Below, in pieces: positions 32,976 to 46,566 of a stretch of 64,000 bases of DNA (the stretch's first letter is position 1; each line of letters starts with the position of its first letter). This stretch comes from Corallococcus coralloides DSM 2259 (lineage in GTDB: Bacteria; Myxococcota; Myxococcia; Myxococcales; Myxococcaceae). The notes under the pieces were generated by a model. The model saw nothing but the letters and a program-made list of their open reading frames with translations. It was not told the DNA's origin and made no database searches. The stretch covers positions 2,852,001-2,916,000 of the forward strand of contig NC_017030.1 of NCBI RefSeq assembly GCF_000255295.1, read 5' to 3'. The position numbers and the translations under genes are program-made.

Positions 32976-32981
32976 ATGTCC

Positions 32982-34310
32982 ATGGAAGGCCGACTGCTTC
33001 TGAAGAACTGCGCCGTGTTCCGTGCGGACGGTCGCGTCCGCCACGGCATGGCCGTCGTGGTCGAAGAGGGCATCATCCGCCGCGTCGCCCCGGACGCCGA
33101 GGTGCCCGTGCTCCCCGGTGACTGGGAAGTGGCCTGTCGAGGCCGCCTCGTCGCCCCCGGGCTCGTGGACTGTCACTCGCACATGGTCAACGGGCAGCTC
33201 TTGCCCCCCAATGGCGACTTCCTCCTGCGCCAGCCCCGCTCGCGCCTGGAGCGCATGCGTTCGGTGGCCAACCTCCTCACCGCCGAGGACGTGGAGGTCC
33301 TGGCCCGCTTCGCCTCCGCCCGCGCGCTGCTCGATGGCGTCAGCCTCGTCGTGGACCACCTGTCGTGCCCCACCGACGTCGCCGGTGGCCTGGAGGCCCA
33401 GGCCCGCGCCGCGAACGCGCTGGGCATTCGACTCGTCACGTCCCACTCCACGCACAGCCTGGATGGCGCGGATGTGGCCAACGCCCAGGCGGACGCCAAC
33501 GCAGACTTCGTCCGCCGCTACCGCGAACACCCCCGCGTCCGTGGCGCGCTCGGCTTCCATGCGTCCTACACCTGCGAGGATGCCCTCCTTTCCCGCATCG
33601 CGGGGCTGCGCAAGGAGCTGAACGCCGCCGTCGTGTTCCACCTGGCGGAGAACGAGGACGACCTCTCCACCACCTACGCCACGCACGGCCGCCGCGTCGT
33701 GCCGCGCCTGGACGCGCTGGGCCTCTTGGGCCCCCACGCCATCGCCGGCTACCCGCGCGCCGTGGAGCGCTCCGAGTCCGAGCGGCTGGCCGCCTCCGGC
33801 ACCTTCATCGCCCTCACACCCCGCGCCACCCGCTCCATGGACCGCGCGGCCGAGTCCGCCGACGGCGCGCTGTCCAGCCTCCACCTCGTGGGCCTGGGCA
33901 CCGGCGGCCATGGCACCCTCCAGGAGGAGCTGGCCGGGGCGCTCGTCAGCATGCTGTCCCTGGCGCGCTCCGGGCGCATGCCGGACCTGGATGACTCGCT
34001 GGCGCACCTGTTCGTCAGCGGCCCCGCGGAGCTGTGCACCCGCCTGTACGGCAAGCCGTCGGGCGGCGTGGAGGAGGGCAGCATCGCGGACCTCGTCGTC
34101 TACGACGCCATCCCCGCCGCGGACCCGGAGACGGGCTACTCGCCCTTCCTCCTGGGGCAGCTGACCGCCGCCCGCGTGGCGTGGACCATCGTGGATGGCC
34201 GCGTCTGCGTCCGCGAGGGACAGCTGCTGGGCAGCGACTTCGTGGACCTGGCCCGCGACGCCGCTGCCGCGCTCGGCCGTGTCTGGTCCCGCGCACGGCT
34301 GGGTTCGTAG
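32982..34310 (+). CDS. amidohydrolase-superfamily protein, SsnA-like, active site incomplete
   Basis: This protein of about 442 residues has the amidohydrolase TIM barrel. The N-terminal metal motif DCHSH, the GVSLVVDH segment and LGFHAS / VFHLAENED align with SsnA and chlorohydrolase-type enzymes. Two expected elements are missing: the histidine of the usual LVAHGLYLS-type segment (here IAGYPRAVE) and the catalytic Asp of LGTDG (here LGTGGHG). It may have lost hydrolase activity or use altered chemistry. I prefer ATG 32982, six bases after GGGG, over ATG 32976, which abuts it. The following methyltransferase gene starts 14 bases downstream. Confidence 0.8.
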   Translation: MEGRLLLKNCAVFRADGRVRHGMAVVVEEGIIRRVAPDAEVPVLPGDWEVACRGRLVAPGLVDCHSHMVNGQLLPPNGDFLLRQPRSRLERMRSVANLLTAEDVEVLARFASARALLDGVSLVVDHLSCPTDVAGGLEAQARAANALGIRLVTSHSTHSLDGADVANAQADANADFVRRYREHPRVRGALGFHASYTCEDALLSRIAGLRKELNAAVVFHLAENEDDLSTTYATHGRRVVPRLDALGLLGPHAIAGYPRAVERSESERLAASGTFIALTPRATRSMDRAAESADGALSSLHLVGLGTGGHGTLQEELAGALVSMLSLARSGRMPDLDDSLAHLFVSGPAELCTRLYGKPSGGVEEGSIADLVVYDAIPAADPETGYSPFLLGQLTAARVAWTIVDGRVCVREGQLLGSDFVDLARDAAAALGRVWSRARLGS

Positions 34311-38212: not shown

Positions 38213-39283
38213 CTACGGGTAGCAGGCCGCCTGGCGCAGGCCGGTGTCCTCGGGGAAGCCGAGGGCCACGTTGAAGTTCTGCACGGCCTGGCCGGCCATG
38301 CCCTTCACCAGGTTGTCCAGCGCCGCCATCACCGCCACGGAGCGGCCCTTCGTCGCCACGGAGATGTCGCAGAAATTGCTGCCCGCCACGGCCGCCACGC
38401 GCGGCGTGCCCTCCACGATGCGCACGAACTTCGAGCCCTCGTAGTAGCGGCGGTACTTCTCCGTCAGCGACTGCGTCACCACCGCGCCGCCGTGCTCCGG
38501 CCACTCGAACTGCACCGTGGCGAAGATGCCGCGCACCATGGGCGCCGAGTGCGGCACGAAGGCCAGCCGGTGCCGCTGCGCGCCGTGCGCCACCAGCATC
38601 ACCTCCACCTCCGCCTCGTGCTGGTGCTCCAGCGGCTTGTACGCGCGGAAGTCATGCGCGCGCGTCGGGTGGTGCGTGCCCTCGCCCGGCAGCGAACCGG
38701 AGCCGGACGAGCCCGTCACACCCGACACCGCCAGCAGCCCCAGCCCTGGCGTGGCCGCGATGGGCAGGAGCGCCAGCTGCACCGCCGTGGCGAAGCAGCC
38801 CGGGTTGGCGATGCGCTTCGCCGTCTTCACCTGCTCGCGCTTCCACTCCGTGAGGCCGTAGGTGAACGTGCCCAGCAGGTCCGGCGCCGGGTGCGGCCGG
38901 CCGTAGGCGCCCGCGTACCGGCCCGGGTGGTCCAGGCGGAAGTCGGACGACAGGTCCACCAGCAGCAGCCGGTCCGTGAGGCCCGCGTCCGCCCACTGCT
39001 TCTCCATCCCGGCGAACTGCGACGCCAGGTCGCCGTGCCCCAGCGCGCTGAACACCACCGGGCGCTGCGAGTCCGCCAGCCAGCGCCAGTCCGGCTCCGC
39101 CTCGAAGCGGCCGTCCACCAGGCCGCGCAGGTGTGGGTGCACCTTGTGGATGGGCGAACCCGCGTGGTGCCGGGACACCACGCGGATGCCGGCGTTGCCG
39201 GGGTGGCCCGCGAGCAGCCGCAACAGCTCGCCTCCGCCGAAACCGGAGGCCCCCAGGATGTAGATGTGCGCAGGCGACGTCAT
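38213..39283 (-). CDS. argC: N-acetyl-gamma-glutamyl-phosphate reductase
   Basis: The protein has 356 residues. The NAD(P)-binding start YILGASGFGGGELLRLL and the catalytic Cys in NPGCFAT (about residue 158) identify ArgC, followed by GSSGSGS and the His-containing HRLAFVPHSAPMVRG segment. It reduces N-acylglutamyl phosphate to the semialdehyde, the third step of arginine synthesis. It is the last gene of the minus-strand operon; its ATG overlaps the DUF1611 gene stop (ATGA), so the two are translationally coupled. Substrate acyl group (acetyl or succinyl) cannot be decided from this sequence. Confidence 0.93.
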   Translation of the reverse strand: MTSPAHIYILGASGFGGGELLRLLAGHPGNAGIRVVSRHHAGSPIHKVHPHLRGLVDGRFEAEPDWRWLADSQRPVVFSALGHGDLASQFAGMEKQWADAGLTDRLLLVDLSSDFRLDHPGRYAGAYGRPHPAPDLLGTFTYGLTEWKREQVKTAKRIANPGCFATAVQLALLPIAATPGLGLLAVSGVTGSSGSGSLPGEGTHHPTRAHDFRAYKPLEHQHEAEVEVMLVAHGAQRHRLAFVPHSAPMVRGIFATVQFEWPEHGGAVVTQSLTEKYRRYYEGSKFVRIVEGTPRVAAVAGSNFCDISVATKGRSVAVMAALDNLVKGMAGQAVQNFNVALGFPEDTGLRQAACYP

Positions 39284-40341
39284 GACTTCCTCCCCGCTCC
39301 CAGCTTGGGCGCGAGCTTCTCCACGATGAGATTCCCCAGGGCGTTCGGATCCGCGCGCGCGTTGCGAGCGGGCAGCCCCACCACCTGCTCCACGAAGCGC
39401 ACGCCCACCGCGTTGTCCGTCGCGGGCCCGGCCACCATGTCCATCTCGATGCCGTACACCTCGCGCAGGTGCCGCACGCCGCCGGCCGCGCCCACGGGGT
39501 CGTTCGCGCACAGGATGTACGCGCCGCCCAGCGCCTTGAGCTCCGGGTCCGCCAGGATGGCCTGCACGCCGTACTCACCCATGATGCCGTCGCCCGTCTC
39601 CGCGACGATGACGTCCACGTCCTGGGCCGCCATCTCCGAAAAGACGATCCGCGCCACCTTGGACGCGGTGCGCGCGCCGGTGCACACGACGCCCGCGTCG
39701 GTGAAGTCCATCACCACGTCCGCGCCGCTGTCCTGCATGGACAGGGTGTCACGCATCAGCGACACGCCCGTGAGCTTCGCGCCGCCCACGCGGTAGCCCG
39801 CCTGGGAGAGCTTCCGCACCACCACGCTGGCCGCGTACGTCTTGCCCGCGTTCATGCAGGTGCCCACCACGTACACCACCGGGCACGTCACCGCCCGCGA
39901 CGTGCCCTTGAGCGCGCCGGTGGAGATGTGCGCGTGCTGGCCCGCGCGCGACTGGAACTCCGGGAAGGTGAGGACCTGGCCCAGCACCTCCGCCTCGAAC
40001 GGCGCGCCCACGCCCGGGTTGTGCGACGTGCACTTCCCGATGACGCCGCCCATGTTGAGGATGTGGAGCCTGTCGCCCACCGTGACGGACGCGGGCACGA
40101 TGCCCTCGTAGCCGTGCAGGGCGTTGCGGTGGCCCAGCGCGCCCACGACGATGTCGCCCGCGTGGAGCGTGACGAGCCGGCCGTTCACGTCCTCCAGCTG
40201 GTTGTAGACGCTCTTCTCCCCGTGGATGCGCACCGCGATGACGGCGCCTTCCTCGCACTTGACCTCATCCGTGAGGTGCACCGTGCGCCCCACCTGGAGG
40301 TTGCGCGTGACACTTCCCACCTTGTCGACGTGGATCTTCAT
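39280..40341 (-). CDS. DUF1611-family P-loop protein, DgcN-like, in the arginine operon
   Basis: The protein has 353 residues. The N-terminal 145 residues are beta-rich (HLTDEVKCEEGAVIAVRI, GDRLHILNMGGVIG). The C-terminal domain begins with a P-loop, GTCMNAGKT (residues 160-168), and continues with GGAKLTGVSL and IVAETGDGIMG, as in DUF1611. A characterised DUF1611 member, DgcN, is an N-acetyltransferase acting on D-glutamate. This gene lies between argG and argC, four bases after argG and overlapping argC by four, so it belongs to the operon. No argA or argJ is present, and it may supply the initial N-acylation of L-glutamate. The family call is firm; the function is inference. ATG 40341 was chosen over an upstream frame that overlaps argG. 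Confidence 0.8.
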   Translation of the reverse strand: MKIHVDKVGSVTRNLQVGRTVHLTDEVKCEEGAVIAVRIHGEKSVYNQLEDVNGRLVTLHAGDIVVGALGHRNALHGYEGIVPASVTVGDRLHILNMGGVIGKCTSHNPGVGAPFEAEVLGQVLTFPEFQSRAGQHAHISTGALKGTSRAVTCPVVYVVGTCMNAGKTYAASVVVRKLSQAGYRVGGAKLTGVSLMRDTLSMQDSGADVVMDFTDAGVVCTGARTASKVARIVFSEMAAQDVDVIVAETGDGIMGEYGVQAILADPELKALGGAYILCANDPVGAAGGVRHLREVYGIEMDMVAGPATDNAVGVRFVEQVVGLPARNARADPNALGNLIVEKLAPKLGAGRKS

Positions 40342-40345
40342 GTCA

Positions 40346-41533
40346 TCACTTCGCTTTCTGCGAGAGCATCTGCGCGACGCCGTAGAGCTTGGCGAACCCC
40401 GCCGCCTCCGTCCCCGTCCACAACACATTGGCCTCACCGTACGTGGCCACCTTCGCGTCCATCAGCGAGTGCGGCGAACGCACGCCTTCCACGACGTGGG
40501 CGCGCGGGGTGAGCACCAGCTTCACCTCGCCCGTCACGCGGTCCTGCGAGGAGGCGAGGAACGCCTCCAGGTCCTTCACCACCGGGTCGAAGAAGTGCCC
40601 TTCATGCAAGAGCGACCCGTACAGGTTGCCCACCGTCTCCTTCCAGAAGAGCTGCTTGCCCGACAGCACCAGCTTCTCCAGCTCACGGTGCGACGCGATG
40701 AGCAGGTGCGCCGCGGGAGCCTCGAAACCCACGCGGCCCTTGATGCCCAGGATGGTGTCGCCCAGGTGCACGCCCCGGCCGATGCCGTACGGACGGCCGA
40801 TGGCGTTGAGCTTCTCCACCACGTCCACCGCGGACAGCGCCTTGCCGTCGAGCGCCACCGGCACGCCCTTCTCGAAGGAGATGATCAGCGGCTGGGGCTT
40901 CAGGTCGGTGGGGATCTCGCCCCCGGGGAAGGCCGCCTCCGGCAGGGTGCTCCACGAGTCCAGCGTCTCGCGGCCACCCACGGACGTGCCCCACATGCCC
41001 TCGTTGACGGAGTACGTGCCCGTCTTCGCCGGCATGTGGAAGCCGCGCTCCGCGAGGAAGGAGATCTCCTGCTGACGGGAGAGCGCCAGGTCGCGGATGG
41101 GGGTAATCAGCTGGAGCTGCGGCGCGAGCGTGCGGAAGGCCACGTCGAAGCGGACCTGATCATTCCCCGCGCCGGTGCTGCCGTGGGCCACGGCCTGCAC
41201 GCCCAGCTTCTCCGCCATGCGCACCGCTTCCACGGCCTGGCAGGCGCGCTCGGCGGAGACGCTCAGCGGGTAGAGCTGGCCGCGCAGCACGTTGCCGGCG
41301 ATGAGGAAGCGCAGGTAGCCCTGGAACAGGGTGTCGCGCGCGTCCACCGTGTGGTGCGCCACCGCGCCCAGCTTCTGGGACAGGGCCTGGATGCGCTCCA
41401 GCTGCTCGGGCGGGAAGCCGCCCGTGTCCACGGTGACGGTGGTGACGTCCCAGCCCTGCTCGCGCAGGTACACCGTGCAGAAGGCGGTATCGAGGCCGCC
41501 GGAGAACGCCAGCACCACGGACTTCTTGCTCAT
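40346..41533 (-). CDS. argG: argininosuccinate synthase
   Basis: The protein has 395 residues. The N-terminal pyrophosphatase-type ATP motif AFSGGLDTAFC and downstream HGSTGAGNDQVRF and GVHLGDTILGIKGR match ArgG. It condenses citrulline with aspartate using ATP. The sequence is closer in style to the Xanthomonas-type than the E. coli-type synthase, as judged from the N-terminal motif. ATG 41533 is the conserved start; longer frames overlap argH. It lies 40 bases after argH and is followed four bases later by the DUF1611 gene. Confidence 0.93.
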   Translation of the reverse strand: MSKKSVVLAFSGGLDTAFCTVYLREQGWDVTTVTVDTGGFPPEQLERIQALSQKLGAVAHHTVDARDTLFQGYLRFLIAGNVLRGQLYPLSVSAERACQAVEAVRMAEKLGVQAVAHGSTGAGNDQVRFDVAFRTLAPQLQLITPIRDLALSRQQEISFLAERGFHMPAKTGTYSVNEGMWGTSVGGRETLDSWSTLPEAAFPGGEIPTDLKPQPLIISFEKGVPVALDGKALSAVDVVEKLNAIGRPYGIGRGVHLGDTILGIKGRVGFEAPAAHLLIASHRELEKLVLSGKQLFWKETVGNLYGSLLHEGHFFDPVVKDLEAFLASSQDRVTGEVKLVLTPRAHVVEGVRSPHSLMDAKVATYGEANVLWTGTEAAGFAKLYGVAQMLSQKAK

Positions 41534-41573: not shown

Positions 41574-42923
41574 TCAGGGGGCCCAGACGCGAGAGGCGGC
41601 CTGGGCCTGCTGTGCGTGGGTGCGCGTGAGCCAGTCGCGCGCATCCGCCAGTTCCTCGCGCGCGGTGGCGAGGCCCAGGTTTCCGGCGCCACCCAGGTGG
41701 GTGGCCGTCAGCGCGCCGCGGTCCGGCTGGAAGCTGCCGTCGTTGAGCTGACGGCCCACCTCCCGGTACGCGTCGCGGAAGGGCTGGCCCTTCGCCACGA
41801 GCGCGTAGGCGTGGTGCGCGGCGTAGAGCGTGTCGTCGCACGCCGCGCGCGCCTTCTCCGCGTTCACCTTCAGCGCGGGCACCAGCCGCGAGAGCACCTC
41901 CAACAGCGCCTTCGCGCTGGTGAGGGCCTGGAGGGTGGGGCGCTTCAGCAGCTGGAAGTCACGGTGGTAGCTGGAGGGAAGCCCGCCGGCCACCGCCTCC
42001 ACCTGGTGCGCAAGGCCGCGCAGCTCGCGGCAGCGGCCCCGGGCCAGCTCCACCACGTCCGGGTTCTTCTTCTGCGGCATGATGGACGAGCCGGTCGTGA
42101 AGGCATCCGGCAGGGCCAGGAAGCCGAACTCGTCCATGCTGTAGAGCTGCACGTCCCAAAGCCACTTCTCCAGAGTGCCCGCCACCGAGCACGCCCAGGT
42201 GAGCAGCGCCGCTTCATGCCGCCCCCGACTGTCCTGCGCGTCGATGGGGCTGCGTTGAACGCGACTAAAACCGAGCAACCGCGCGACATATTCACGGTCG
42301 ATGGGCAGCGGAACACCAAAGCCCGCGGCGGCGCCCAGCGGGCAGCGGTCGAGCCGCCCCCACACGCCCTTCAGCGCCTCCAGCTCCTCCAGCAGTCCTT
42401 CGGCGAACGCCATGCCCCACAGGCCGAAGGTGGACGGCATCGCGCGGCGCAGGTGCGTGTAGCCGGGCAGGGGCAGGTCCGCATGCGCTTCCGCGAAGTC
42501 CAGGAACGTGCCGGCGAGCTCCGCCGTGCGCGCGCCCAGCGCGAGCAGCTCCTCGCGCATGAACAGGCGCAGGGCCAGCAGCACCTGGTCGTTGCGCGAG
42601 CGCGCCAGGTGGATGCGCTTGCCCGCCTCGCCGGTGCGCTCCACGAGCGCGGCCTCCAGCGCGGTGTGGCCGTCCTCCTGCTCCGGGCGGATGGTGAAGC
42701 GGCCCGCGCGCGCCTCGTCGTGGAGCGCGTGCAGGGCGCTCACGAGTGACGTGGCGGCCTCCGGCGCGAGCAGCCCCACGTGCGCGAGCATGCGCGCGTG
42801 CGCGGCGCTGCCCAGCGCGTCGTGCGGAACGAGCGACAGGTCCACCACGGGGTCGTCGCCCACGGTGAAGGCGTGGATGGCCGCGTCCAGCGGCTGGCCC
42901 TTGCCCCACAATGTCTCAGCCAC
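41574..42923 (-). CDS. argH: argininosuccinate lyase
   Basis: The protein has 449 residues. The fumarase/aspartase-superfamily signature GSSIMPQKKNP, the N-terminal HLARSRNDQV and the central GYTHLRRAMP are all present. It splits argininosuccinate into arginine and fumarate, the last step of the pathway. I chose the GTG at 42923 because GGGGAGG lies six bases upstream; an ATG-like frame to 42941 is longer by six residues. Either start overlaps the end of the deacetylase gene, so translation is coupled. Confidence 0.94.
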   Translation of the reverse strand: MAETLWGKGQPLDAAIHAFTVGDDPVVDLSLVPHDALGSAAHARMLAHVGLLAPEAATSLVSALHALHDEARAGRFTIRPEQEDGHTALEAALVERTGEAGKRIHLARSRNDQVLLALRLFMREELLALGARTAELAGTFLDFAEAHADLPLPGYTHLRRAMPSTFGLWGMAFAEGLLEELEALKGVWGRLDRCPLGAAAGFGVPLPIDREYVARLLGFSRVQRSPIDAQDSRGRHEAALLTWACSVAGTLEKWLWDVQLYSMDEFGFLALPDAFTTGSSIMPQKKNPDVVELARGRCRELRGLAHQVEAVAGGLPSSYHRDFQLLKRPTLQALTSAKALLEVLSRLVPALKVNAEKARAACDDTLYAAHHAYALVAKGQPFRDAYREVGRQLNDGSFQPDRGALTATHLGGAGNLGLATAREELADARDWLTRTHAQQAQAASRVWAP

Positions 42924-43977
42924 GCGACACCTCCCCGGCATAGCCGTGCAGCAGTCGTCGATAGAACGCGAGCCCCGCCTCCAGCTCCGCGCGCGTGAGG
43001 TACTCGTTCGCCTGGTGGCTCCGCAGCGTGTCGCCCGGGCCCACCTTCACCGCCGGGATGTCTCCCAGGAACGCCCAGTCGGACGTGGTGCTGGAGCCCA
43101 CCGTGTCCTGGCCCGACGCCACCACCGCCGCGCGCACCAGCGGGTGCGACGCGTCCGTGCCCTTGGGCAGGTAGCGCGCGGAGTGCACCACGACCTCGCT
43201 CTCCAGCGCCCGGCCCACGTCCTCCGCCACCTTCGCGTGGTCCATGCCCGGCGTGGTGCGCAGGTCCACGAAGAACTCGCACCGGTCCGGCACCTGGTTG
43301 CGAGCCAGTCCGCCGGATACCTGCGTCACCTGCGCCCGCGCCTCACCCAGCAGCGGGTGCGCGGGGAAGCGCAAGGCGGACACGGCCTGGATGTCCCGGG
43401 CCGCCTTGAGGATGGCGTTGTCCAGCCCTCCCGTGTGCGCGTGCGCCACGTGGCCGCTCTTGCCGTGCGCCACGCAGCGCAACAGCAACATGCCCCGCTG
43501 CGCCGTGCAGGGCTTGAGCGACGTGGGCTCACCCACGATGGCGGCGTCCAGCGGCCCCAGCGTGGAGAGCAGCGGCCCCAGCCCCTTGCCGCCCGTCTCC
43601 TCCTCGGCGGTGAGCGCGAAGACGCACTCCACACCCTTCGGCGCGCCTTCTTCCAGGAGCGCCTTCGCGGTGAGGAGCATGGCGGTGACGCAGCCCTTGG
43701 CGTCGTTGGCGCCCAGGCCGTAGAGCGTGTCGTCCTTCCACACGGCCTCGTGCGGCTCCGTGGTCCACCCGGCGCACGGCTTCACCGTGTCCAGGTGGGA
43801 GTTCACGAGCAGGCGCTTCGGCCCGCTGCCCACGCTGAACCACACGTTGTGGCCCTGGCGGTGCACGCGGGCACCCCAGGACTCCGCATGGCCCGCGACG
43901 AGGTCCGCGATGCGGGCCTCGTCGCCGGAGACGCTGGGCGTGGCGACCAGCGCGGTGAGCAGCTCGGCGGGGTTCAA
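42916..43977 (-). CDS. argE': M20-family N-acylcitrulline (or N-acylornithine) deacylase
   Basis: The protein has 353 residues and begins with a TTG overlapping the argB stop (TTGA). Metal-site motifs are NSHLDTVKP (His/Asp) and YGLGANDAKG, with the catalytic Glu pair in TAEEETGG and EPTSLKP. The motif set NVW...NSHLDTVKP...LYGLGAND closely resembles the Bacteroidetes ArgE' that removes succinyl from N-succinylcitrulline, rather than E. coli ArgE. Combined with the N-acylornithine transcarbamylase upstream, it should release citrulline from N-acylcitrulline. The acyl group is uncertain; an N-acetylornithine deacetylase is the alternative. Confidence 0.8.
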   Translation of the reverse strand: MNPAELLTALVATPSVSGDEARIADLVAGHAESWGARVHRQGHNVWFSVGSGPKRLLVNSHLDTVKPCAGWTTEPHEAVWKDDTLYGLGANDAKGCVTAMLLTAKALLEEGAPKGVECVFALTAEEETGGKGLGPLLSTLGPLDAAIVGEPTSLKPCTAQRGMLLLRCVAHGKSGHVAHAHTGGLDNAILKAARDIQAVSALRFPAHPLLGEARAQVTQVSGGLARNQVPDRCEFFVDLRTTPGMDHAKVAEDVGRALESEVVVHSARYLPKGTDASHPLVRAAVVASGQDTVGSSTTSDWAFLGDIPAVKVGPGDTLRSHQANEYLTRAELEAGLAFYRRLLHGYAGEVSRG

Positions 43978-44900
43978 CCCTTGGCCTCGCCGTGCTTCAC
44001 CGGGTGCTCGCGCACGACCATGGTGCCGCTGCCCTCGTTGGTGAAGACCTCCTCCAACAGCGCATCGGACTGCTTGCCGCTCACCAGGTGCACGCTGCCC
44101 ACGCCACCCACGAGCGCGTGGCGCATGGCGTGCGCCTTGGGACGCATTCCACCCGTGAGCCGGCCTTCGGCCTCCAGGGAGGCCAGGTCCGACAGCGTGG
44201 CCAGCGAGATGAGCGACGACGGGTCGGAGACGTCCTTGAGGAGCCCCGGCACCTCTACCAGGAAGAAGAGCTTCTCCGCGTGCAGCGCCGCCGCCAGGGC
44301 CGCCGCCACCGTGTCCGCGTTGGTGTTGTAGACAGCGCCGTCCTGGCCGCCCGACAGCGGGGCGATGACGGGCACGTAGTCCGCGGAGCGCAGGTGCTCC
44401 ACGACGCGCGTGTCCACGGACTCGATGTCGCCCACGAGGCCGTAGTCCACCATGCGCCCTTGCGTCTCGCCGGGCTCCGTCACCAGCACGGGCGGGCGCT
44501 TGCGCGCCTTGATGAGGCCCGCGTCCACGCCGGACAGGCCCACCGCGGGCACCCCCGCGGCCTGGAGGTCCGCGAGCAGGTCCGTGTGCAGCTTGCCCGC
44601 CAGCACCATCTTCGCCGCGTCCAGCACGGGCGCGGAGGTGACGCGGCGGCCGGCCACCTTCTCGATGGGCAGGTGCAGGGCGTCACAGAGCGAGTCCAGC
44701 TCCGGACCGCCGCCGTGCACGACGACGGGGCGGATGGAGAAGGCCCACAGGAGGGCGATCTGCTCGCACGCGGCCTTGCGGGTGCGCGGATCCGTCAGCA
44801 CGGCTCCGCCCAGCTTCACCACGAAGGTCTTGCTGCGGAACTGCTTCACGTACTTCGCCGCGTTGCGAAGTGCGGCGTACGGGTCGGGAGACAAAGGCAC
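43974..44900 (-). CDS. argB: N-acetylglutamate kinase (amino-acid kinase family)
   Basis: The protein has 308 residues. The kinase motifs are clear: VVKLGGAVL at the N-terminus, VVVHGGGPELD, the AGRRVTSAPVLDAA substrate region, YNTNADTVAAALA, and GGMRPKAHAM at the C-terminus. It phosphorylates N-acylglutamate, the second step of arginine synthesis. No C-terminal GNAT domain is attached, unlike the bifunctional kinase-synthase of Xanthomonas, so it cannot supply N-acetylglutamate itself. The start is GTG 44900 with AGAGG six bases upstream; the frame extends far upstream without sense because it overlaps argF'. Confidence 0.92.
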   Translation of the reverse strand: MPLSPDPYAALRNAAKYVKQFRSKTFVVKLGGAVLTDPRTRKAACEQIALLWAFSIRPVVVHGGGPELDSLCDALHLPIEKVAGRRVTSAPVLDAAKMVLAGKLHTDLLADLQAAGVPAVGLSGVDAGLIKARKRPPVLVTEPGETQGRMVDYGLVGDIESVDTRVVEHLRSADYVPVIAPLSGGQDGAVYNTNADTVAAALAAALHAEKLFFLVEVPGLLKDVSDPSSLISLATLSDLASLEAEGRLTGGMRPKAHAMRHALVGGVGSVHLVSGKQSDALLEEVFTNEGSGTMVVREHPVKHGEAKG

Positions 44901-44961: not shown

Positions 44962-45966
44962 TTAGCCGCCGCGCATCCAGGCCAGGAGGGCGCGCTGCAC
45001 GTGGTAGCGGTTGCCCGCCTCATCCACGACGCGGCTGCTGGCGTGATCCAACACCTCGTCGGCGACCTCCACGTTGCGGCGCACGGGCAGGCAGTGCAGG
45101 AACGCCGCGTCCTTCGCGGCCTTCGCCATGTGCCGGCGCGTGGGCATCCAGCCCGAGTACGACGCGAGCAGCGCCGCCACGTCCGTGGGCGTGCTCGCCG
45201 TCTGGGCGGTGGGGCCCCAGGACTTCGCGTACACGGCGCGGCTGCCCACCAGCGCCTCGTCCTGGTCGTGCGTGTACGTGATGCTGCCGCCGGTGGCCTT
45301 GGCGTACGCCTCCGCCTCCGCGCGCACGGCCGGGTGCAGGTCGAAGCCCGGCGGATGCGCCACGCGCACCTCACAGCCCGCGGCCGCCGCGGACAGGAGG
45401 AAGGAGTTGGGCACGGCCTTGGGCAGCGGCTTGATGTGCGGCGCCCAGGTGAGCGTCACCGGCAGCTTCTTCGTGGTGCCGAACGTCTCGCGCAGGGTGA
45501 GCGCGTCCGCCAGGCCCTGGCAGGGGTGCTCACGCGCGGACTCCATGCTCACCACCGGCACGGTGGCCCACTTGCGGAAGGCGTTGATGACGGGGTCGGC
45601 CTCGTCCTCCTCGTCACCGCCACCCTGGGAGAAGGTGCGGATGCCGAGCATGTCCACGAAGCGCGACAGGACGGGCGACGCCTCCTTGATGTGCTCCGCG
45701 CGGTCCGCGTTCATCACCGCGCCGGGCCGGTCCTCCAGCTTCCACACGCCAGAGCCCACGTCGAGCACGATGGCGTGCCCGCCCGCGCGCAGCATCACCG
45801 CCTCGAAGGACGTGCGCGTGCGCAGGGACGGGTTGAAGAACACCATGCCCAGGAGCTTCCCCGGGAAGATGTGCCCCGGATCCTTCTGCTTCCACGCGGC
45901 CGCCTGCGAGAGGACCGCCTCGACGCCTTCCGGGCCCAGGTCCTGAATGCGGGTGACATGCTTCAT
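44962..45966 (-). CDS. argF': N-acylornithine carbamoyltransferase
   Basis: The protein has 334 residues. The carbamoyl-phosphate motif is FFNPSLRTRTSFE (about 43-55), with HPCQGLAD and the C-terminal HCLPVRRN. HCLPVRRN, YAKSWG and TWAPHIKPLPKAVPNSF are hallmarks of the N-acetyl- and N-succinylornithine transcarbamylases, not ordinary ornithine transcarbamylase. The known specificity residue (Glu92 in Xanthomonas AOTCase, Pro90 in Bacteroides SOTCase) is Ala90 here, which leans towards the succinyl substrate. The enzyme should make N-acylcitrulline. It is the first gene of the operon, downstream of an ArgR-like operator. Confidence 0.88.
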   Translation of the reverse strand: MKHVTRIQDLGPEGVEAVLSQAAAWKQKDPGHIFPGKLLGMVFFNPSLRTRTSFEAVMLRAGGHAIVLDVGSGVWKLEDRPGAVMNADRAEHIKEASPVLSRFVDMLGIRTFSQGGGDEEDEADPVINAFRKWATVPVVSMESAREHPCQGLADALTLRETFGTTKKLPVTLTWAPHIKPLPKAVPNSFLLSAAAAGCEVRVAHPPGFDLHPAVRAEAEAYAKATGGSITYTHDQDEALVGSRAVYAKSWGPTAQTASTPTDVAALLASYSGWMPTRRHMAKAAKDAAFLHCLPVRRNVEVADEVLDHASSRVVDEAGNRYHVQRALLAWMRGG

Positions 45967-46010
45967 GGGCTTCGTGCTCCCCCGGCCGCGCCGGATGGAT
46001 GGGGACTGCT

Positions 46011-46038
46011 GAATATGCACTTGAATTCGTGCATATTC
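46011..46038. promoter_or_regulatory. ArgR-type operator in the argF'-argR divergent region
   Basis: GAATATGCAC (46011-46020), eight bases containing GAATTC, then GTGCATATTC (46029-46038): a perfect 10-bp inverted repeat 45-72 bases upstream of argF'. Its TGAAT/ATTC character matches ARG boxes. The 180-base divergent region (45967-46146) is markedly AT-richer than its surroundings and has further ATTC and GCAT elements nearer argR, suggesting autoregulation. Confidence 0.7.
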
Positions 46039-46146: not shown

Positions 46147-46566
46147 ATGAACCTGGACGACGCCATCCTTCAGCTCATCTCCCGGCAGGACGTGCCGGAT
46201 CAGTTCGTCCTGCAGTCGTTGCTGGAAGAGGCGGGGCACACGCCCAGCCAGTCCACGCTGTCGCGGCGGCTGAAGAAGCTGAGCGTGCAGAAGGTGAACG
46301 GGCGCTATCAGCGCGCCGAGCCGCCAGTGGCGCCCGTGCCGCTCGCGCCGCGCGTGACGATCATCGAAGCGCCGCCCAACATGCTGGTGCTGAAGACGGC
46401 GCCCGGCTACGCGCAGATCTTCGGGCTGGCGCTGGACCGCGAGGAGGTGGAGGGCCTGGCGGGCACGGTGGCGGGCGACGACACCATCTTCATCGCGGTG
46501 AGGGATCCATCGTACCTGCGCGACGTGCGCGAGGCGGTGGAGGAGCTCATCCAGCGCGGCCCGTGA
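46147..46566 (+). CDS. argR: arginine repressor
   Basis: The protein has 139 residues. The N-terminal winged helix has the ArgR motif SQSTLSRRLKKLSVQKVNGRY. The C-terminal oligomerisation and arginine-binding domain ends with GTVAGDDTIFIAV, matching the GTIAGDDT family motif. It should repress the divergent arginine operon when arginine is abundant, probably as a hexamer. Its 3' end overlaps the convergent ligase-like gene by 20 bases. Confidence 0.95.
   Translation: MNLDDAILQLISRQDVPDQFVLQSLLEEAGHTPSQSTLSRRLKKLSVQKVNGRYQRAEPPVAPVPLAPRVTIIEAPPNMLVLKTAPGYAQIFGLALDREEVEGLAGTVAGDDTIFIAVRDPSYLRDVREAVEELIQRGP

Follow-up and report, generated by a model that had tools for sequence, protein, structure and literature searches.

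A 64,000-nucleotide stretch of the Corallococcus coralloides DSM 2259 genome (contig NC_017030.1, positions 2,852,001 to 2,916,000 of the forward strand), referred to here as the window, contains an arginine biosynthesis operon in which a gene with no assigned family lies between argG and argC. We refer to this gene, at window positions 39280-40341 on the minus strand, as X. Our analysis indicates that X probably encodes an N-acyl-L-glutamate synthase that would start a linear arginine pathway, with succinyl as the most likely acyl group. The step itself is a known one, for which X would very probably be a new type of protein. From the gene neighborhood of X, its exclusion with ArgJ, the scores of the tested N-acetylglutamate synthase (NAGS) models below their cutoffs, residue conservation, the predicted fold, and the residues of the accompanying carbamoyltransferase, we infer the role of X in the first step, the acyl group, and the chemistry.

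The X reading frame runs from an ATG at position 40341 to a TGA at 39280-39282 and encodes 353 amino acids with no internal stops. Four bases (TGAC) separate it from argG, whose stop is at 40346, and its own stop codon and the argC start codon (ATG at 39283) share an ATGA overlap. A first-pass annotation of this DNA had placed X within the operon on the basis of this 4-base gap and 4-base overlap, and the coordinates agreed when they were read again. NCBIfam and Pfam assignments gave the gene order argF'-argB-argE-argH-argG-X-argC, with argR divergent at 46147-46566:

38213-39283, minus strand: argC, N-acylglutamyl-phosphate reductase (TIGR01850, 326.1 bits, over the cutoff)
39280-40341, minus strand: X, proposed N-acyl(succinyl)-L-glutamate synthase, 353 amino acids, putative function
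40346-41533, minus strand: argG (TIGR00032, 311.5 bits, over the cutoff)
41574-42941, minus strand: argH, start uncertain (TIGR00838, 302.4 bits, over the cutoff)
42916-43977, minus strand: argE-like M20 deacylase, TTG start as listed (Pfam M20, over the cutoff)
43974-44849, minus strand: argB, N-acylglutamate kinase, 291 amino acids, without a GNAT fusion (TIGR00761, 206 bits, over the cutoff)
44962-46020, minus strand: argF', knotted carbamoyltransferase, start uncertain (NF003384, 447.6 bits against a cutoff of 288; diagnostic residues A, P, and E)
46147-46566, plus strand: argR, divergent (Pfam Arg_repressor and Arg_repressor_C, over the cutoffs; TIGR01529, 84 bits, under 130.45)

The proposed pathway would run through X, ArgB, ArgC, ArgD, the knotted ArgF', ArgE, ArgG, and ArgH, and X would N-acylate L-glutamate in the committed first step. 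A Pfam and NCBIfam scan found no argA, argJ, or GNAT gene within the operon, in agreement with the earlier observation that argA, argJ, and a GNAT-argB fusion are all missing from it. The best NCBIfam match of the argE-like protein was acetylornithine deacetylase (141.9 bits, under the cutoff of 297.7), and the protein fell below every NCBIfam cutoff shown; we propose that this M20 protein is an N-acylcitrulline deacylase. The order from the divergent argR through argF', argB, argE, argH, argG, X, and argC was identical in all 17 Myxococcaceae loci read, which represent 17 of the 53 genomes with X described below. According to excerpts of two papers, the arginine cluster of Myxococcus xanthus is upregulated in predation (MXAN_5104-5111, PMC10196010; MXAN_5105-5110, PMC9548883). 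The M. xanthus cluster has eight loci, as many as the genes here, a correspondence by count and not tag by tag. An open reading frame (ORF) of the amidohydrolase family is found about 4 kb past argC (32976-34310, plus strand), with no operon link seen.

The association of X with arginine genes extends well beyond the Myxococcaceae. A scan of GTDB contigs with ten X proteins (two peptide patterns), which misses more distant X, recovered 62 loci; the argC query used in the locus scans lacked the first Met. X was 94-99% identical in ten loci, nine titled Corallococcus and one Myxococcaceae, and 24 of the 62 loci were counted as Myxococcaceae. These 24 include L104, titled Comamonas sp. KCTC 72670, whose X is 84% identical and Myxococcus-like; this record is probably mislabeled or contaminated. 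The other 38 loci (49-66% identity) belong to Gammaproteobacteria, Acidobacteria (Holophagaceae and Vicinamibacterales), Planctomycetes (Phycisphaerae and others), Fimbriimonas, and two further myxobacterial or deltaproteobacterial metagenome-assembled genomes (MAGs), or about five phyla as judged by titles. arg genes flank X in all 38. In every one of the 36 loci that are long enough, the next arg gene after X is argC, 12 to 703 bases on, and argG is just upstream of X in all 35 non-Myxococcaceae loci having argG. At an E value of 1e-10, the 38 loci, several of them on short contigs, contained argF' (31), argB (33), argE (22), argH (28), and argR (30). In L109, L110, L115, L116, L117, L119, L130, and L140, the region between argB and argH showed no argE.

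Three of these loci, L127, L143, and L145, hold argR, argD, argF', argB, argE, argH, argG, and argC together with X, so that from glutamate only step 1 is missing. An ArgD-type ORF of 370-398 amino acids was present in 10 of 10 operons, with the acetylornithine transaminase model as its best match, below the model cutoffs. In L144, the order is argR-X-argC-argD-argF'-argB, and in L124, X occurs with argF'-argB-argC; argG, argE, and argH were not seen in either locus. X thus stays with the early pathway steps in L144. Ten more ORFs close to X operons, taken from nine loci, matched TetR, hydrolase, M20, and aminotransferase families in Pfam or, weakly, PIN or Vasohibin, and four had no match; none was a GNAT, and the idea of a GNAT hidden in the X operons was rejected for these loci. 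Pairwise distances of X correlated with those of argF', argC, and argB at 0.957, 0.972, and 0.955 over 71 loci and at 0.913 (argF'), 0.943 (argC), and 0.926 (argB) over the 30 non-Myxococcaceae loci. Such correlations are expected of genes inherited as a unit.

According to excerpts of PMC4490483 and PMC3827942, the known N-acetylglutamate synthases are GNAT-type proteins or ArgJ, and the GNAT synthases are very diverse. X shares its proposed reaction and its place in the pathway with ArgA, NAGS-K, S-NAGS, ArgO, ArgH-A, C-NAGS, and ArgJ. Unlike these proteins, it matches neither the GNAT nor the ArgJ families: at E values up to 1, there was no match to GNAT families in Pfam and NCBIfam or to PF01960 (ArgJ) in Pfam. 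A search of the full genome for known synthases had been proposed in the first-pass annotation. In the host genome, a single 10.08 Mb contig, a PF01960 search found nothing, and 45 GNAT hits corresponded to 44 ORFs, for which no NAGS family was among the NCBIfam matches listed at 1e-12 (at least 25 families). ArgJ was found in none of 20 non-Myxococcaceae X genomes, whose completeness is unstated and two of which are just 0.9 and 1.2 Mb. Full-length ArgA (TIGR01890) was over the cutoff in none of 27 X genomes and none of 3 ArgJ relatives; the same model was over the cutoff in 1 of 14 control genomes. The ArgJ, ArgA, and short-NAGS searches covered 20, 18, and 14 of the 38 non-Myxococcaceae loci, respectively. 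X is encoded beside the other pathway steps where the known synthases are missing (the short-NAGS model lacks a positive control). Because some operons contain all steps but the first and the known synthases remain under their cutoffs, X is very probably the missing synthase.

The distribution of X within the host's class points in the same direction. X is present in 53 of 120 class genomes, which represent 5 of 43 genera and belong without exception to the Myxococcaceae, and the knotted carbamoyltransferase NF003384 is over the cutoff in exactly the same 53 genomes. ArgJ occurs in 60 genomes, all among the 67 that lack X, with an overlap of 0 (Fisher p 2e-26; here and below, the genomes are related and the p values hence do not reflect independent observations). 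Some Myxococcaceae rows are near duplicates, with genomes in both L064-L080 and L085-L108, and the counts given as fractions overstate independence. Among X-lacking relatives, 29 of the 30 examined have a carbamoyltransferase-family match, at no more than 39% identity to the window ArgF'. One Myxococcaceae lineage therefore has a pathway in which carbamoylation precedes deacylation, and most of its relatives have ArgJ instead. Each turn of such a carbamoylation-first pathway costs the acyl group, and an N-acylglutamate synthase is thus required. A second class, that of genome G133 (L138, titled Phycisphaerae), gave a similar result in 296 genomes, with the X and ArgJ surveys taken as one draw because their identifiers agree. 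Close X proteins (530-586 bits) were found in 19 genomes, none of which has ArgJ, and ArgJ was found in 183 of the other 277 (p 4e-9); four genomes with weak X matches only (19-25 bits) are in neither X group.

The first-pass annotation described X as a DUF1611 protein homologous to DgcN, a D-glutamate N-acetyltransferase, and this part of the description did not hold. Against PF07755 (DUF1611), X scored 23.3 bits with hmmscan and 24.1 bits in the genome search, short of the gathering cutoff of 25, and the match spans only profile positions 4-48 of 201, the 45 positions around the P-loop. The host genome encodes a separate, true DUF1611 protein, L001 (1051-2127; contig about 5936900-5937980), whose closest solved relative is DgcN (7xrj, E 2.8e-121). 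When an alignment of 41 X sequences was compared with L001 by hhalign, the P-loop alone aligned, with a probability of 5. An ATGQTG motif, which we read from four DUF1611 members, follows the P-loop in L001, 7xrj, 2obn, and 2g0t; X has KLTG instead. The arginine operon setting, and perhaps the N-terminal domain without a fold match, also distinguish X from DUF1611/DgcN proteins, with which it shares a C-terminal P-loop fold, a similar overall length, and possibly glutamate as the substrate. X was accordingly rejected as an ordinary DUF1611/DgcN member, and in the structure model only its P-loop domain is clearly related to that family. What stands of the earlier proposal that X performs the missing first acylation of L-glutamate is the operon, the missing step, and a likely synthase; its basis in homology to DgcN does not. 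X was also rejected as MobB or BioD, to which it had weak matches only (TIGR00176, 23.1 of 76.2 bits; TIGR00347, 16.3 of 83.3 bits, E 0.0083). A phmmer search of X against the PDB gave 0 matches at E values up to 10, and no description of X was recognized among the papers listed from an open-license literature library on DUF1611, DgcN, NAGS, gaps in amino acid synthesis, and the succinyl arginine pathway. L001 adjoins a YebC-like ORF (recognized by eye).

X was modeled with AlphaFold2 from the 41 sequences, with a predicted local distance difference test score (pLDDT) of 91.4 and a predicted template modeling score (pTM) of 0.90. The main features of the protein are as follows:

39901-40341, minus strand: N-terminal beta-rich domain, residues 1-147, with invariant GHRNALHGY (70-78)
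39283-39900, minus strand: C-terminal P-loop domain, residues 148-353, with VIA-align structure matches
39838-39864, minus strand: P-loop GTCMNAGKT, residues 160-168, with G160, T161, C162, M163, G166, K167, and T168 invariant in 41 sequences
39775-39777, minus strand: Lys189, +22 from the P-loop Lys167, K in 41 of 41 X
39598-39600, minus strand: Glu248 in VAETGDG, candidate Mg2+ ligand, invariant in 41 X sequences

The P-loop had been noted in the first-pass annotation and was found as described. Foldseek placed signal recognition particle GTPases and BioD on top for the whole model, and VIA-align changed this ranking: the Z scores were 17.2 for TM0796 (2g0t), 16.0 for Escherichia coli CTP synthase (1s1m; CTP synthases in general about 15-16), 15.8 for DUF1611 protein 2obn, 15.7 for BioD (3of5), and 14.8 for DgcN (7xrj). 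The CTP synthase and BioD scores are about equal to those of DUF1611, and the P-loop fold match is therefore not specific to DUF1611. When the whole model was aligned to DUF1611 chains, the aligned part started at residue 97-98. A separate prediction of residues 1-149 (pLDDT 88.4) gave nothing in Foldseek at 1e-3 and a best VIA-align Z score of 3.1, with DgcN not listed.

The conserved residues suggest possible chemistries for X. The lysine at +22 is also present in E. coli BioD, in CTP synthase, and in 13 of 13 distant paralogs; the position is Ala in L001 and, by reading, in 7xrj, 2obn, and 2g0t. Asp198 and Glu248 are both invariant in the 41-sequence alignment, and Glu248 is a candidate counterpart of the acidic residue of BioD VEGAGG and PyrG VEIGG. 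Global hhalign alignments of the P-loop domain with BioD, PyrG, and L001 were meaningless, so the lysine was compared by ungapped spacing from the P-loop and Glu248 by eye. The equivalent lysine and acidic residues of BioD and CTP synthase serve in ATP-Mg handling and phosphoryl transfer. X resembles the BioD/CTP synthase amidoligase domain in its P-loop fold, the lysine at +22, and, by eye, an acidic V-E-x-G motif, and it differs in its weak sequence match, its additional N-terminal domain, and its location in an arginine operon. Its residue pattern is compatible with a BioD- or CTP synthase-like ATP-dependent amidoligase. Judged by the +22 lysine and conserved acids, X is about equally likely to activate a free acid with ATP and to transfer the acyl group from coenzyme A (CoA). 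By analogy, it is possible, if short of probable, that X is an ATP-dependent N-succinyl-L-glutamate ligase that would convert free succinate or another acid to an acyl phosphate and join it to glutamate. The C-terminal P-loop domain would bind either the activating nucleotide (ATP-Mg) or the phosphates of CoA, and the N-terminal beta domain would probably shape the glutamate/acyl site.

The identity of the acyl group can be approached through ArgF'. According to an excerpt of PMC4581275, Glu92, Asn185, and Lys302 mark acetylornithine carbamoyltransferase, and the succinyl enzyme has A/S/P/V/Q, P, and V/I/E at these positions. The numbering is that of the Xanthomonas campestris N-acetylornithine carbamoyltransferase (AOTC), with positions 92 and 302 fixed by mutant chains in PDB alignments and 185 by numbering. 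The window ArgF' has A, P, and E, the succinyl type. Among 73 X-linked ArgF' proteins (the window and 72 loci), 49 have APE, 11 have PPE, 10 have APV, 2 have TPE, and 1 has TPK; 42 of them, all APE, are from Myxococcaceae, with repeats. The full succinyl rule holds at the three positions in 70 of 73, and acetyl-type Glu92 or Asn185 occurs in none. These succinyl-type residues indicate that the acyl group is probably succinyl. The acetyl name given by NCBIfam to the ArgF' at 44962-46020 contrasts with its succinyl-type residues and may be an annotation error in Myxococcaceae.

According to excerpts of PMC7311316 and PMC5317091, respectively, Bacteroides uses an N-succinyl arginine pathway for which BT3761 is the proposed N-succinylglutamate synthase, and the BT3761/Cabys_1732 type is limited to Bacteroidetes and Caldithrix. 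Both groups are absent from the titles of the 62 X loci. The Bacteroides pathway, with its N-succinylornithine carbamoyltransferase (SOTC), resembles the X pathway in having a knotted carbamoyltransferase, succinyl-type residues, and proposed succinylated intermediates. It differs in the first step, which would be carried out here by X and not by a BT3761/Cabys_1732-type protein, which we take to be a GNAT.

Alternatively, X might acylate glutamate as an acetyl-CoA-dependent, DgcN-like N-acetylglutamate synthase, with the ArgF' residues being misleading. This is a variant of the proposed function and does not exclude it. DgcN uses acetyl-CoA, its P-loop domain is related to that of X (7xrj, a structure titled N-acetyltransferase), and several observations favor acetyl over succinyl. 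The window ArgF' scores 244.4 bits against the X. campestris AOTC and 199 against the Bacteroides fragilis SOTC, and NF003384 itself carries the name acetylornithine carbamoyltransferase. The L144 ArgF' has T, P, and K, those of L124 and L128 have T at the first position, and an excerpt of PMC1382215 refers to the ArgE of M. xanthus as an acetylornithinase. The near uniformity of the three succinyl-type residues among the 73 ArgF' proteins and the lack of the DgcN motif ATGQTG in X argue in the other direction, and we regard the acetyl variant as doubtful.

A different explanation is that an unrecognized GNAT encoded elsewhere makes N-acylglutamate and that X serves the arginine pathway as a regulatory or accessory ATPase, such as a sensor of arginine or a channeling partner of ArgC. 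X is a P-loop protein, the host has its 44 GNAT ORFs, and the reported diversity of GNAT synthases (PMC4490483 and PMC3827942, in the excerpts cited above) means that a divergent member among the 44 could perform step 1. The searches themselves leave room for such a protein. The short-NAGS model was over the cutoff in none of 19 X genomes (best 35 of 180 bits) and likewise in none of 14 controls, making it a weak test, and 13 of the 19 X genomes have GNAT matches to it below the cutoff. The best outlier is a 180-amino-acid GNAT frame in a gammaproteobacterial MAG with X (L197, G120:C31:36735-36998), with 36.5 bits to TIGR01890 and 35.1 to short NAGS. The elimination of known synthases rests on the ArgJ, ArgA, and short-NAGS models, with no dedicated search for C-NAGS, ArgO, or the BT3761/Cabys_1732 type. 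Other observations also temper the assignment of X as the synthase. Seven of the 120 class genomes lack both ArgJ and X. argE is found in only 22 of 38 loci and is unseen between argB and argH in gammaproteobacterial operons that are long enough, so not every X operon lacks step 1 only. The pathway type itself accounts in part for the exclusion with ArgJ: an acyl-citrulline route cannot recycle by ArgJ, so that a synthase is needed and X is not thereby identified as that synthase. Against a GNAT elsewhere in the host genome, the NCBIfam matches listed for the 44 ORFs include no NAGS model, the nearest GNAT is about 0.4 Mb from the arginine operon, and no GNAT is among the ten additional ORFs close to X operons. 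A regulatory role for X would also leave unexplained why operons that are complete, X included, lack step 1 only. We therefore consider this explanation unlikely.

It is highly improbable that X performs another carbamoyl or arginine step, such as BioD-like formation of carbamate or carbamoyl phosphate for ArgF'. Although its P-loop domain is similar to those of BioD and CTP synthase, with the same lysine spacing, the large subunit of carbamoyl-phosphate synthase (carB) was over the cutoff in 22 of 22 X genomes tested, on which basis X was rejected as the carbamoyl-phosphate source. In addition, argC is next to X in 36 of 36 loci that extend far enough, and separate genes encode the later arginine steps.

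In the racemization pathway, dgcN is partnered by a racemase. Supply of N-acetyl-L-glutamate by L001 and an N-acetylglutamate racemase, with X doing something else, is scarcely credible: L001 is close to DgcN and dgcN is described in an excerpt of PMC12363236 as the key gene of an irreversible racemization pathway, but no racemase was recognized by eye, and without a family search, among the ORFs in 3.6 kb around L001, and the arg operons are tied to X and not to DgcN (a DgcN relative was looked for in the host genome).

Proteins more distantly related to X appear to have other roles. X-like proteins of 27-33% identity occur in 13 genomes of the 296-genome class (L207-L219), 8 of which have ArgJ, and the 13 stretches around them, some of them short, showed no arg gene. 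Eight neighboring ORFs comprise two DksA-like, three ABC exporter-like, and three unnamed proteins. Among plasmid relatives (25-32% identity), three of eight records were read: two lie beside ABC transporters (L225 and L226), and the third is clustered with genes for an ornithine carbamoyltransferase-like protein, ATP-grasp proteins, and an M20 peptidase. This third protein, encoded at L227 5899-6960 on Priestia megaterium plasmid NZ_CP085446.1, is 25% identical to X, and its cluster includes two ATP-grasp proteins, thiamine pyrophosphate enzymes, and a phosphoenolpyruvate mutase-family gene. In its gene content, the cluster resembles a natural-product pathway that uses N-acyl protection. Because distant members occur outside arg loci, often with ArgJ, the wider family does other things, which also tempers the proposed function of X. 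The arginine-linked X is one branch of a larger family, and its function is not transferable to the rest.

If X is the N-acyl-L-glutamate synthase, a textbook step that is otherwise filled by GNAT proteins or ArgJ would have a new solution in a P-loop protein, and a protein with no assigned family would gain a function. If X is in addition an ATP-dependent ligase, the synthase would lack the GNAT fold and perhaps not require CoA, and it would serve a Bacteroides-like succinyl pathway in about five phyla. The arginine gap would be closed in Myxococcus, Corallococcus, some planctomycetes, Holophagaceae, and Fimbriimonas. Succinylated intermediates are predicted in these bacteria, whose arg genes may therefore be mislabeled as acetyl. 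The wider family, with its ABC exporter neighbors and plasmid biosynthetic cluster, would then be a place to seek related N-acylations.

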